IMG/VR virus record: IMGVR_UViG_3300030101_000172
Span: 1 to 60,546 of that record
DNA: 60,546 bases
Reading direction: 5' to 3' (one strand)
DNA from: a virus
Shown here: positions 23,042-31,108 of the stretch, one piece after another
Position numbering within the stretch: position 1 is the first letter of the stretch
How the letters are laid out: each line of letters opens with the position of its first letter
Program-made: the position numbers and the translations under genes
Notes under the pieces: model-generated
What the model was told of the DNA's origin: nothing
The model's database searches: none
Seen by the model: the letters and a program-made list of their open reading frames with translations, nothing else

Positions 23042-23060
23042 TGTTAGTGTATCACTAACA
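23042..23060. repeat. palindrome copy 1, TGTTAGTG-TAT-CACTAACA
   Basis: Perfect 8-bp arms and a 3-base centre. It begins 4 bases after a TATAAT (23033-23038), where an operator would cover the transcript start. Confidence 0.9.
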
Positions 23061-23191
23061 AAAAAACATAATAAAAAGTTATTATTTACAAAGTTACTAT
23101 ATCAAACTTAATAAAAATGTGTATTACTATAATCATCAGCAAGACAATACTGTCTTTTAAAATTCGCTGGTACAATAAAAGGAGTTTAGCA

Positions 23192-23722
23192 ATGGCTAAA
23201 TCTATTAAATTTACTGCTGAGGTCGGTAATAAAATAACCTCTACTGTTAAATCTGCTCAAGCTGGTGTTAATGCGATCAACTCGCTTATACCTGTCTTAA
23301 TCAAGCACGGTTTCTTATCTACAACGTTTCTTAGTCCACATACTAAGAATACGAAAAGCACGGCAACAGTCGAGCAGTTCGATAAGATTAACTATTGTAT
23401 CGTTGCAGGTTTTTCTGCTCCAGTTCAAAAGTTGTTGGAAACACCAACTAAAGGACTGACAGATGCTAAAAAGATCTCTAAGAGATATTGGCAGCAACAG
23501 ATAGGGGCTAGACGTAACGACTTATCCAAAGCTCTTGCCAAGCGAGAGAGCGGAGGTAATGGGGCTGGTGGTAAGCCTCGCACACCTGAACAACGTGTCA
23601 GGGATAACCTTAACGATGTGCTTAAAGTAATCGAGGCTGTCGAGGACGAAAAGCAATTAGTTAAGGGCGAGGCTATCAAGCACCTTGTTAAACAAGCCGT
23701 TGCTTTACTACCTAGCAATTAA
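23192..23722 (+). CDS. first rightward early protein, 176 residues, unknown
   Basis: ATG at 23192, preceded by AAAGGAG. MAKSIKFTAEVGNKITSTVKSAQAG begins a basic, helical protein with LIPVLIKHGFLST, a central WQQQIGARRNDLSKALAKRE, a Gly-rich basic linker (SGGNGAGGKPRTPEQRVRDNL) and a C-terminal helix ending ALLPSN. There is no catalytic motif. It is the first gene after the divergent control region, so it is probably made at once on infection. The charge and linker would suit a nucleic-acid-binding or host-takeover protein, but this is only inference. Confidence 0.6.
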   Translation: MAKSIKFTAEVGNKITSTVKSAQAGVNAINSLIPVLIKHGFLSTTFLSPHTKNTKSTATVEQFDKINYCIVAGFSAPVQKLLETPTKGLTDAKKISKRYWQQQIGARRNDLSKALAKRESGGNGAGGKPRTPEQRVRDNLNDVLKVIEAVEDEKQLVKGEAIKHLVKQAVALLPSN

Positions 23723-23738
23723 ATTTAACTAGCGGAGC

Positions 23739-23760
23739 GGAGGGAGTTACACCTCCCTCC
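23739..23760 (+). promoter_or_regulatory. GC-rich hairpin between two early genes
   Basis: GGAGGGAG-TTACAC-CTCCCTCC, an 8-bp perfect stem in the 63-base gap after the first early gene. It is not followed by a proper T-tract. It may stop or slow transcription, set an mRNA end, or protect the upstream message. Confidence 0.55.
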
Positions 23761-23785
23761 CTCCCTTTATTGAAAGGACTATATC

Positions 23786-23992
23786 ATGAGAAAAGACAAT
23801 AAAACTCTTGAGGCAATCAAGAGGCGAGAGGCTAGAAAGTTTGCACAAAATAAGTTTGCTTTCATGCTCCAAGATCAACGACTAGATAACATTCAACGTC
23901 AAGAGAATGATAAGAATGTTAAAAAAATCATGACAAGTAATGACATTGATTTTAAAAAGTTAATGATTAAGAACGGAGTAAAACCAAAATGA
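23786..23992 (+). CDS. small basic early protein, 68 residues
   Basis: MRKDNKTLEAIKRREARKFAQNKFAFMLQDQ is followed by a charged helical sequence ending IKNGVKPK. The Shine-Dalgarno GAAAGGA lies 9-10 bases before the ATG. It overlaps the next gene by ATGA. No known motif; function unknown. Confidence 0.6.
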   Translation: MRKDNKTLEAIKRREARKFAQNKFAFMLQDQRLDNIQRQENDKNVKKIMTSNDIDFKKLMIKNGVKPK

Positions 23993-28622: not shown

Positions 28623-29779
28623 TGTACGGAGTATCACAGTATGGCATGTCTAGGTTTGGTCTAAACTGCTTTGAGCAGGTGGAGGCTTGTTACAACAATA
28701 CCAAACCAATCATCAGTAAAAATCAAACGTTGCAACACGATATACGACCTATCGGTGACAGAGGTAGAAAGCATGAGCGTATCGCTAAAGTTTCCGATAC
28801 TTGTTACATGTTACTCAATGGCGAGTTAGGTGACAATATGACATGGTATTACAAGTATGAGGATAACCACCAACTCCATACTATCCAAGATGTTAGTGCA
28901 ACACTAACATTTGCACCAGTAGTGTGGACTAGGCATGATGGCTACGACACGATACGTATTCGTAATGGGTCGGGTCACTATGCTCACAACTCTAGGTACT
29001 CGTTCTTATCAAGATGTTTACCTAGTGATATGCACGCTATCATTGGCGATGGTAAGCAGTACGTAGTCTATGAGGGTGTGAGGTATCTCTTACCCAAGAG
29101 TATGTGGTTTCCAAACAACTACTACAATACTCAAAATGGTTTGAAGAAAGATGACGAGCATTACCTAGTGTTTAGGAGAGATCATGCAGATAATCTCAGT
29201 GATACCAAGTTCAAACTTACTGGTAACAAGTTTACGTGGCATGCCAAACGTTATGGTGTGGATGTGGCAACTAAGAACAAGTACAAGTCACAGATCAACG
29301 AACTGTGGGACTACATGTGTACAGTTGCACCTATGTTCAACAATATCTTTGGTGGCAGGGACAGAGGTAGCAGTGGTAACTATTACCAAGAACAATGGCA
29401 AACACGACAACTCAAGTACAAAGCTAAACGTGAGGCACTCAACGAGGGTCGTGAGGAAGTGCAGAACTATGTGGAGAATGTTCTTAACATACCACAAGAG
29501 AGAGTTCACTACATGCGTGATAGTCAGATATACCAAGACTCGCCATGGAAACATGCTCATTTCCCAGTGCCTTTGATAGAGCAGATACTGGCTGATGACC
29601 AACACCCCATGCGTCTTAACTTGGTAAGAGATATTATCAATGACATGGAAGACATAGTGGACTGTCAAGACAAGCAAGAGGCATCGAAGATACGTTCGCA
29701 GTACAATCGATGGTTTAACAAGCACATGGGTTTCACAAAACTTGTGGCTGATGAACACATAACAAAGGAGGAAGTGTAA
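28622..29779 (+). CDS. unknown early protein, 385 residues, palindrome inside
   Basis: Starts at a TAATG overlap with AAGGAG upstream. Segments are YGVSQYGMSRFGLNCFEQVEACYNN, IQDVSATLTFAPVVWTRHDGYDTIRIRNG, SFLSRCLPSDMHAIIGDGKQYVVYEGVRYLLPKS and, in the C-terminal third, helical charged sequence (KAKREALNEGREEVQNYVENVL). The DVSATLTF stretch (about residues 90-97) is encoded by a palindrome copy. No enzymatic motif is recognised. Aromatic-rich and basic, it may bind nucleic acid. Codon choice is similar to the MoxR module. Confidence 0.6.
   Translation: MYGVSQYGMSRFGLNCFEQVEACYNNTKPIISKNQTLQHDIRPIGDRGRKHERIAKVSDTCYMLLNGELGDNMTWYYKYEDNHQLHTIQDVSATLTFAPVVWTRHDGYDTIRIRNGSGHYAHNSRYSFLSRCLPSDMHAIIGDGKQYVVYEGVRYLLPKSMWFPNNYYNTQNGLKKDDEHYLVFRRDHADNLSDTKFKLTGNKFTWHAKRYGVDVATKNKYKSQINELWDYMCTVAPMFNNIFGGRDRGSSGNYYQEQWQTRQLKYKAKREALNEGREEVQNYVENVLNIPQERVHYMRDSQIYQDSPWKHAHFPVPLIEQILADDQHPMRLNLVRDIINDMEDIVDCQDKQEASKIRSQYNRWFNKHMGFTKLVADEHITKEEV
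28891..28909. repeat. palindrome copy 9, TGTTAGTG-CAA-CACTAACA, inside a gene
   Basis: Perfect arms, encoding VSATLT in the 385-residue protein. It is the same sequence including centre as copy 5. Confidence 0.9.
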
Positions 29780-30804
29780 TGACTAATAAGATATCGTATT
29801 GGAAAAGATACAAGGACAACTATGCACGAGTGTCTCTTATCAAACCATGGGTCGAGGGAGACCTATCGACAAAACCTGCTGTGTGGAAAACAAACCAAGA
29901 AACTTTAGAACAGTTTGTGCAGCAGTTGAGTAAAGAACTACGTGGTGTTAAGTTTACACGTAGGAGAGATGACTCTTACTGGATATACAGAGATGATAAC
30001 CCATACGTGATGGGTTGGGTAGGGAGAGGTCTTAACTTCCTATCCACCACCACGAGTGATGATTATCTGTTTTGTGTATGTGCTAGGACTATCAACAACT
30101 GGAAGTACAACGATGGTAGTTGGCAACACTATGCCAAGATGTCAACGAAATGGGACAAAGCAATGAAGAATGCTAAAACTTATTTACGTGTGATGTCACC
30201 TCACGACATGGCATACATAAATCAAGATCGCATCGTGCAATCATTGGGTAATATCACTCGACAAGAGGAGAACAAGTTGGGTAATCTTTACAAGTCTTTG
30301 TTCAACTCTGTGCAAGAAAGCTATGACTACATTAGAAAGTTCAAGGCTAATCGTGCCAAGGAACATACTGTGTTACAGTTCATGCACAAGATATACACAG
30401 AGAAACGTGAGTTGTTGGAAGACGATCCCGACTTTCTCAAAACATACGAGGACTTCCTTGCACAAGAGCAACAACTGAGTGAAGCCCTGAAGAAACAACA
30501 CAAGGTGTACCACATACGTGTTTACGAAGATGCTTTCAAAGTTAGGAAGTTTGATGTAACATTTATTGGTAATGCAGAGGGAGGCACACTTGGCACAAGT
30601 CAACCGATAGAGGATATGAGTCTGTCACCCAAGGTGGTGCTTGATGATAGCACGTTACCCGAAGACTTGTTGGGTAAGGTATCTGTGTTAACAATGTTAG
30701 ACGAGGGAGGGTTTGTCGATGAAGTTGGCTACAAAATTGATTCCACGATGTTTTATGTCATCACGGAAAGAGACTTCCACATCTCATCAGATACCACACG
30801 ATAA
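29779..30804 (+). CDS. unknown early protein, 341 residues
   Basis: Strong AAGGAGGAAG site; the ATG overlaps the preceding stop (TAATG). MTNKISYWKRYKDNYARVSLIKPWVEG opens a protein with DSYWIYRDDNPYVMGWVGRGLN, a long helical middle (QEENKLGNLYKSLFNSVQESYDYIRKFKANRAKEH) and a Thr/Asp-rich C-terminus. Trp and Tyr are frequent. It resembles no family I can name. It is adjacent to the 385-residue protein and coupled to it, so the two may act together. Confidence 0.55.
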   Translation: MTNKISYWKRYKDNYARVSLIKPWVEGDLSTKPAVWKTNQETLEQFVQQLSKELRGVKFTRRRDDSYWIYRDDNPYVMGWVGRGLNFLSTTTSDDYLFCVCARTINNWKYNDGSWQHYAKMSTKWDKAMKNAKTYLRVMSPHDMAYINQDRIVQSLGNITRQEENKLGNLYKSLFNSVQESYDYIRKFKANRAKEHTVLQFMHKIYTEKRELLEDDPDFLKTYEDFLAQEQQLSEALKKQHKVYHIRVYEDAFKVRKFDVTFIGNAEGGTLGTSQPIEDMSLSPKVVLDDSTLPEDLLGKVSVLTMLDEGGFVDEVGYKIDSTMFYVITERDFHISSDTTR

Positions 30805-31042
30805 CAAGATATATCGTGTTTCAATAGACAATGGTAGCAAATGTGTTAAAATAACACCGATTGGTATCAATGGTATTGACAACCAAGCAGAGGGTTGGTA
30901 TGATTCTGTTGATGTACTACCTAGATGGGTGCAAGAGAAGATGGCATTACTTATGATGTCTGATGCTCAACCACCTATCTACGAAGTGGATGACGTAGGC
31001 AAAAGGATTAACAACGATATCTTTTGGATATATCATCCGTAA
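30755..31042 (+). CDS. small protein overlapping the previous gene, 95 residues
   Basis: Best start is the ATG at 30755, giving a 50-base overlap; a downstream start is possible because the conserved-looking part is HDNKIYRVSIDNGSKCVKITP onward. It has EGWYDSVDVLPRWVQEKMALLMM and ends DIFWIYHP. Reading continues past the stop of the previous gene, so the 3' two thirds are clearly coding. Function unknown. Confidence 0.5.
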   Translation: MSSRKETSTSHQIPHDNKIYRVSIDNGSKCVKITPIGINGIDNQAEGWYDSVDVLPRWVQEKMALLMMSDAQPPIYEVDDVGKRINNDIFWIYHP

Positions 31043-31051
31043 CAATTAAAA

Positions 31052-31070
31052 TGTTAGTGTGGCACTAACA
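31052..31070. repeat. palindrome copy 10, TGTTAGTG-TGG-CACTAACA
   Basis: Perfect arms, in the 94-base gap after the 95-residue gene, 38 bases from copy 11. Confidence 0.9.
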
Positions 31071-31089
31071 GTTTTGGGAAACCTTAATT

Positions 31090-31108
31090 TGTTAGTGTCG
31101 CACTAACA
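31090..31108. repeat. palindrome copy 11, TGTTAGTG-TCG-CACTAACA
   Basis: Perfect arms, 29 bases before the start of a 49-residue gene. It is the rightmost copy in the window; genes beyond it have none. Confidence 0.9.

Follow-up and report, generated by a model that had tools for sequence, protein, structure and literature searches.

We examined a 60,546-nucleotide stretch of DNA from a virus (IMG/VR record IMGVR_UViG_3300030101_000172, positions 1 to 60,546; hereafter the window) that carries eleven copies of a 19-base-pair (bp) dyad, TGTTAGTG-N3-CACTAACA, all of them within positions 23,042-31,108. Among relatives, the sequence of the dyad changes in step with that of p201, the product of the first rightward early gene. 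Because of this, p201, a previously undescribed protein, is the likely reader of the dyad and the likely switch protein for these sites, and we consider it highly likely, judging from sequence comparison, that p201 reads them, alone or as part of a complex. The fuller account that we favor is that p201 binds the dyad as a dimer, reads it through a conserved helix and residue 106, and blocks early transcription. We regard this account as probable, and repression of early genes as its probable outcome.

The dyad in the window

An original prediction made from this sequence had listed eleven copies of the dyad, and all were found at the positions it gave, seven of them exact and four (24221, 24316, 26018, and 27155) with one mismatch. 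When up to three mismatches were allowed, the sole additional match in the window was at 6400, with three mismatches. With 0.65 such matches expected by chance and a maximum of 3 across 100 dinucleotide shuffles, the remaining window is at the level of composition-matched sequence, and the statement that no complete copy lies elsewhere was borne out. The 17-mer core GTTAGTG-N3-CACTAAC is exact in 9 of the 11 sites, the copies at 24221 and 24316 sharing the same right-arm A-to-C change; it does not occur outside the 11 sites in the 60,546-base record, where the same pattern written backwards gave 1 match.

Across 263 related sites the arms are nearly invariant, as had been predicted: pairs 2-4 and 6 are constant and pair 5 changed once. 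The 3-bp center is variable, also as predicted, but it is not free, since Y-(G/C)-R (Y, pyrimidine; R, purine) is preferred. Relatives keep the arms, while the center and flanks vary. Copies do stand before the MoxR and VWA genes, but those at 25025, 25117, and 28891 lie inside open reading frames (ORFs), all in one frame reading (N/D)VSxTLT. This is the only usable frame, because the other two contain a stop (TAG or TAA). A -10 box had been noted next to copies of the dyad; the copy at 23042 does adjoin a -10-like TATAAT, although a good -35 is absent there.

Distribution of the dyad

The exact 19-mer was found in at least 119 stretches of viral contigs (at least 246 copies, window included) and in 18 stretches of 257 gigabases (Gb) of bacterial and archaeal genomes, where about 60 matches would be expected by our own arithmetic (16 fixed bases, equal base frequencies). 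The dyad is virus-specific. A host regulon site was ruled out, since cellular genomes carry the motif no more often than chance would give. Gene clustering, which counted the window and drew on the matches listed, placed 113 of the 120 loci with the motif in one syntenic phage family, uncultured and mostly marine, whose gene set comprises TerL, portal, p201, g25079, MoxR, VWA, g28622, g29779, endonuclease, PolA, exonuclease, and helicase. The loci are metagenomic fragments, and because they are related to each other, the contig and site counts given throughout are not independent. In near full-length records the sites are confined to a stretch of up to ~16 kilobases (kb) beside p201, which upholds the predicted restriction to the early region, with no scatter outside it. 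A single site near the opposite contig end in G034 would be expected if the map is circular.

The nearest isolates by TerL are the pelagiphages HTVC027P and HTVC023P and their freshwater relatives, at 41-47% identity. There was no dyad in the first 50 kb of HTVC027P, HTVC023P, 023Pt_psg01, or DSL-LC04, no DNA match among isolated relatives, and no p201 match in the phage record collection. Literature searches found, among the papers listed, no phage report on the literal arm sequences, and they gave nothing relevant on repeats beside MoxR/VWA genes in marine phages. An Rfam search of the relatives' control regions gave nothing at the gathering score except the unrelated Mu-gpT-DE RNA, which matched in the late region of one relative (L087:1504-1556); weak matches in the window were below threshold. 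Separately, a contig of uncultured Lewinella (L131:5743-5850) carries three exact dyads spaced 44-45 bp apart, which look like a tandem repeat and are apparently unrelated to the phage family.

Covariation of p201 with the dyad class

Relatives of p201 were collected by protein sequence alone, down to ~30% identity. Dyads of the TG or GG class are present in 82 of 84 non-redundant p201 contigs; the 84 together hold 407 dyads, and the reversed pattern gave 0. Of the 53 non-redundant contigs identified from the protein only, 51 have TG or GG dyads, and the other two have the C class. This third dyad class, TGTTAGC-N5/6-GCTAACA, accompanies a distant p201 (KRYWQQQIGSRIAKLG / KRYWQQQVGARIAKLG) in the two remaining contigs, L201 and L222. 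In one clade every site of each genome reads TGTTAGGG-N3-CCCTAACA, so that the class has switched in a concerted manner.

Residue 106 of the p201 alignment is Ser in 14 of 14 GG genomes and either Ala (44) or Thr (2) in all 46 TG genomes. It belongs to KRYWQQQIG-A-RRND, where the protein is most conserved, and is the only p201 column that discriminates perfectly between TG and GG. No column separated the classes in TerL (0 of 520) or portal (0 of 762). On p201 trees built without the core columns, the dyad class changed three times and residue 106 was altered at each change. L192 (TG, Ala) is nested within the GG/Ser clade, and L184 (GG, Ser) within the TG/Ala clade.

The comparison of L192 with L195 amounts to a natural regulator-operator switch. 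Their TerL and portal proteins are 99% identical, and their DNA is 90.3% identical over 6.3 kb. All 4 classifiable dyads of L195 are GG and all are TG in L192, where three of them also have a 4-bp center; a fifth site (7105), already irregular, remains GG-like. The flanks of the switched dyads are 85-96% identical, whereas the p201 region is only 65-75% identical and p201 is the most changed gene in the stretch. A trans-acting reader of the dyads must have changed. Recombination could have replaced p201 in this pair, yet the scattered operators sit in flanks that were not replaced.

Placement of the dyad at genes and promoters

Within the non-redundant set, 50 of 53 contigs have a dyad near the g25079 start (mode +46 to +48, inside the gene). 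A dyad lies upstream of MoxR in 41 of 47 (mode -22), at the start of VWA in 23 of 44, and at the start of g28622 in 17 of 22. A homologous dyad is found 150 bp or less from the p201 start in 49 of 72. There were none near the starts of TerL (0/80), portal (0/68), PolA (0/27), or exonuclease (0/22). The motif recurs beside MoxR and VWA in related phages, and together with virus specificity this positional conservation backs the idea of a dedicated early-gene phage regulon.

Pooled over related genomes, strong sigma70-like promoters on the early strand give 80 dyad pairs at 0 to +200 from the transcription start, with ~10 expected, and no dyads at -60 to -1. The GG clade, together with one contig from outside it, has ten pairs at -100 to -78, where the dyad precedes the p201 promoter. 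The best two promoters of the window, at 24823 and 30876, are 140-260 bp upstream of the dyads at 25025/25117 and 31052/31090.

Predicted structure of p201 and the proposed circuit

Searches with p201 gave no match in Pfam (including ParB, initiator, Noc, SlmA, and MatP families for the p201 family as a whole), PHROG, or PDB sequences. The best match among viral models was an uncharacterized Caudovirales protein with an E-value of 0.086. Two AlphaFold models, with predicted local distance difference test (pLDDT) scores of 89 and 86, found nothing in a PDB fold search at an E-value below 3. Both models are all-helical, and in them residues 91-119 form one long helix with residues 106 and 109 one turn apart. 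We infer from the models that a p201 dimer would place this helix in the major groove.

In the circuit we propose, p201 would be made from the first rightward early gene and bind the dyad as a dimer, with one subunit on each half-site GTTAG(T)G. The arm would be read by helix 91-119. Residue 106 would recognize base pair 7, with Ala or Thr matching T:A and Ser matching G:C. Bound p201 would then act as a roadblock to elongating host RNA polymerase, so that its accumulation would turn down the early operon, possibly including p201 itself, and the resulting shutdown may aid the switch from early to late expression. A block to elongation is the most likely mode of action because the sites are found 20-200 bp past strong host-type early promoters, as well as where p201, g25079, MoxR, VWA, and g28622 have their 5' ends. 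A roadblock also fits better than promoter occlusion, since the operators stand within the initial 20-200 bases of the transcript and ahead of one gene after another. A broader proposal is doubtful: that p201 represents a new class of sequence-specific DNA-binding protein in which residue 106 sets the operator type, and that phages with no detectable integrase diversify regulator and operators in concert.

Several observations weigh against this account. The support for p201 is covariation, which is distinct from a binding assay, and p201 neighbors many of the dyads, so linkage or recombination could move both together. One of the three class changes, that of L184, shows a single dyad before the contig end. 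G004 (L279:5299-6015) has TG dyads and, in the p201 slot, an unrecognizable 217-amino-acid (aa) protein that is marginally alignable with p201 and could be either a highly divergent p201 or a replacement; L037 holds a weak p201 homolog only. The promoter-dyad counts pool related genomes, and the p201-side dyad of the GG clade is placed as an activator site might be, ~80-100 bp ahead of the p201 promoter. Finally, the sites show a polarity along the direction of transcription (3' outer A in 442 of 453, 5' outer T in 321 of 453, and hybrids changing the right arm 15:1) that one would not expect from a simple symmetric dimer and that leaves room for an RNA or an asymmetric complex.

Alternative explanations

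Early transcripts might instead form an RNA hairpin at the dyad, with an 8-bp stem and a 3-nucleotide loop, to which p201 or some other protein would bind for translation control or antitermination in the manner of a nut/boxB or coat-operator hairpin. This polarity favors the hairpin, as do a center that is incompletely strand-symmetric (p ~0.0008, uncorrected for relatedness) and the location of most sites in transcribed leaders or directly before Shine-Dalgarno sequences. The substitution pattern speaks for DNA instead. All 18 one-arm changes among the 263 family sites break pairs, with 0 wobble and 0 compensatory changes. Hybrid sites consist of one exact half-site per class (TG/CC 15, GG/CA 1), giving 15 T-C mismatches and 0 U-G wobbles. 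Pair-breaking changes and class hybrids without wobble or compensation are the half-site behavior of a protein on duplex DNA rather than RNA pairing, which supports the originally predicted dimeric DNA-binding protein, as do the virus specificity and positional conservation of the sites. The outer pair is frequently unpaired while the 3' A persists, and the p201-side site of the GG clade lies upstream of the p201 promoter. We retain the hairpin, with a small probability, because the sites are polar with transcription. That same polarity, with the GG-clade site near -80 to -100 of the p201 promoter, would suit activator or antitermination sites through which p201 turns on early genes or helps polymerase through. 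Most other sites are downstream of promoters, which is more typical of roadblocks, and the promoters are already near consensus, so activation too seems improbable to us.

A partition or replication-origin set (parS- or iteron-like), with the gene-start positions being simply where 19 bp fit, is in our view unlikely as a general role. Clustering of the sites in one part of the genome favors it, and it may hold for the copies at 24221, 24316, and 24585, which share a noncoding block (24.1-24.8 kb) with a companion element, element B, and AATGTTC repeats. To that extent the original suggestion of such a role stands. Against it are the consistent distances that the sites keep from certain genes even in divergent relatives, their exclusion from other genes, the three copies inside ORFs, a spacing set relative to promoters, and the lack of a match between p201 and ParB or initiator families. 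Another phage protein, either the small helix-turn-helix (HTH) protein at 37432 or one not yet seen, might bind the dyad while p201 covaries through linkage alone, given that an HTH protein is a plausible DNA binder and that p201 is adjacent to the sites. This is very unlikely: p201 tracks the site at the level of a residue, both in L192, where the class reverted, and in L184, where it was gained independently, and TerL, which is likewise closely linked, has no tracking column. The HTH protein had been put forward as a candidate binder. We favor p201 (23192-23722) over it, as no positive evidence for it was found, in a comparison that does not reach its gene in L192 and L184, whose contigs end before it.

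Other features of the early region

The named genes, promoters, terminator-like hairpin, and companion elements of the early region are on the plus strand of the window, while the dyads are given without strand. Dyad 1 (TGTTAGTG TAT CACTAACA, 23042-23060) lies in the divergent region upstream of p201, 3 bp past the TATAAT. In most family members, a G-rich tract (GGGGTAGGGTGGGGT-like; 22980-23000 in the window) precedes the p201-side dyad by 20-45 bp. The p201 gene encodes 176 aa from the ATG at 23192 (23192-23722; a longer ORF begins at 23117). The proposed recognition helix, codons 91-119 with KRYWQQQIGARRNDLSKALAKRE, is at 23462-23548, and codon 106, Ala here, is at 23507-23509. A terminator-like hairpin with a T run (24103-24124) follows p201 and a small ORF at 23786.

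The noncoding block beyond it contains element B copy 1 (GACACCAGTTACACGGGTAGCGTTGAGC, 24147-24175), dyad 2 (24221-24239), element B copy 2 (GATGCCAGTTACACGGGTAGCGTTGAGCC, 24244-24272, 4 bp past dyad 2), dyad 3 (24316-24334), element B copy 3 (24352-24380), and dyad 4 (24585-24603). Dyads 2 and 3 are hybrids of TG and GG half-sites. AATGTTC/GAACATT repeats are numerous at 24370-24760, and likewise in L076, and are possible origin iterons. Element B is ~29 nucleotides long and asymmetric, with the consensus GAWRCCAGTTCTTAGAGTMGCGTTGAGCC, and follows a dyad by 3-5 bp in the same orientation (24147, 24244, 24352, and 31111 in the window). Repeats of it stand near the endonuclease gene and in the noncoding block that follows p201, and many relatives have it (e.g., L076:4638-4990). 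Its core has 223 matches against ~18 expected, and no Rfam entry matched it.

The first strong sigma70-like promoter (TTGACA-N17-TATACT, 24823-24851), with an extended -10 and 11 of 12 consensus bases, feeds g25079-MoxR-VWA. Dyad 5 (25025-25043) is at about +167 from it, at the end of an ORF at 24861-25058, and dyad 6 (25117-25135) is in frame within g25079 as NVSDTLT. The putative regulon members are g25079 (308 aa, no assigned function, 25079-26005), a MoxR-like AAA ATPase (phrog_1297, 26050-27147), a DUF2201 metallopeptidase-VWA protein (27187-28431), and g28622 (385 aa, no assigned function, 28622-29779). Dyads 7 (26018-26036) and 8 (27155-27173) directly precede the Shine-Dalgarno sequences of MoxR and VWA, respectively, and dyad 9 (28891-28909) is in frame within g28622 as DVSATLT. 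The next gene, g29779 (341 aa, no assigned function, 29779-30804), has dyads near its start in relatives. From the second strong promoter (TTGACA-N17-TATGAT, 30876-30904), dyads 10 (31052-31070) and 11 (31090-31108) are at about +141 and +179, and an element B core (GAAACCAGTT, 31111-31120) follows before the 49-aa ORF at 31137.

Elsewhere in the window, a protein encoded beside TerL (21609-22250) strongly matches phrog_3704, labeled ferredoxin (1.7e-106), and a 2256-aa protein (41476-48246) matches LPD39 and DarB-like antirestriction proteins. No RNA polymerase was seen among the large proteins; a separate PF00940 search had no working control. We tentatively set aside an N4-type hairpin promoter, which would call for a phage-encoded single-subunit RNA polymerase.

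Comparison with known systems

From sequence data alone, the analysis links an orphan family, for which no domain, fold, or isolate is known, to the DNA that it probably targets, points to a single candidate specificity residue, and offers a concrete early-gene control circuit for an uncultured phage family. The closest parallel is with Cluster A mycobacteriophages such as L5 and TipsytheTRex, which use host RNA polymerase and have many near-identical sites, oriented with transcription, throughout their early genes and at the borders between genes. Only some of these sites are at promoters, and site consensus and repressor diverge together (PMC9283540, PMC6550527). Their stoperators are asymmetric 13-bp sites to which a monomer with an N-terminal HTH and a stoperator domain binds, and the phages are temperate, with superinfection immunity (PMC9283540, PMC6550527). 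Like these, our family has many repeated sites in promoters and short intergenic gaps, where we would assign a repressor role to their reader; the sites follow the direction of transcription, and site and p201 sequences change together among relatives. Unlike them, the site is a 19-bp near-palindrome with weak polarity, and p201 has no known fold and matched no HTH or stoperator domain. By analogy, the dyad-p201 system may work like a stoperator system, and the site geometry suggests an elongation block as in Cluster A. Given the palindromic site, the unrelated protein, and eight near full-length records in which neither an integrase nor a resolvase was found (which is still compatible with extrachromosomal lysogeny), we have not filed it as a stoperator member. 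If roadblock repression is true, stoperator-like control would extend from temperate actinobacterial phages to marine phages without a detectable integrase.

Other systems share some of these properties. Streptomyces phage phiC31 has many conserved inverted repeats (CIRs), mainly in early intergenic gaps, bound by its c repressor. The many copies of an inverted repeat in the early region are alike, but phiC31 is temperate, its site sequence differs, and its repressor appears unrelated to p201, which had no match in the phage record collection. The ParB-parS, Noc, SlmA, and MatP site sets comprise ~10 near-invariant palindromes that are tolerated in coding sequence and regionally clustered. The dyads resemble them in number, invariance, and confinement to one region, with some copies in coding sequence, but the positions of the dyads go with certain gene starts, and p201 matched no such domain. 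In lambda and heteroimmune lambdoid phages, Cro and cI bind two-fold operators as dimers, and regulator and operators switch specificity together. The dyad is likewise two-fold and its class changes together with p201, whereas lambda has a few operators at two promoters and a classical HTH, and here ~10 sites include gene starts far downstream of promoters. If concerted regulator-operator diversification is true, as in heteroimmune temperate phages, it would point to an immunity-like contest between co-infecting relatives, or to hidden lysogeny, in a widespread uncultured family.

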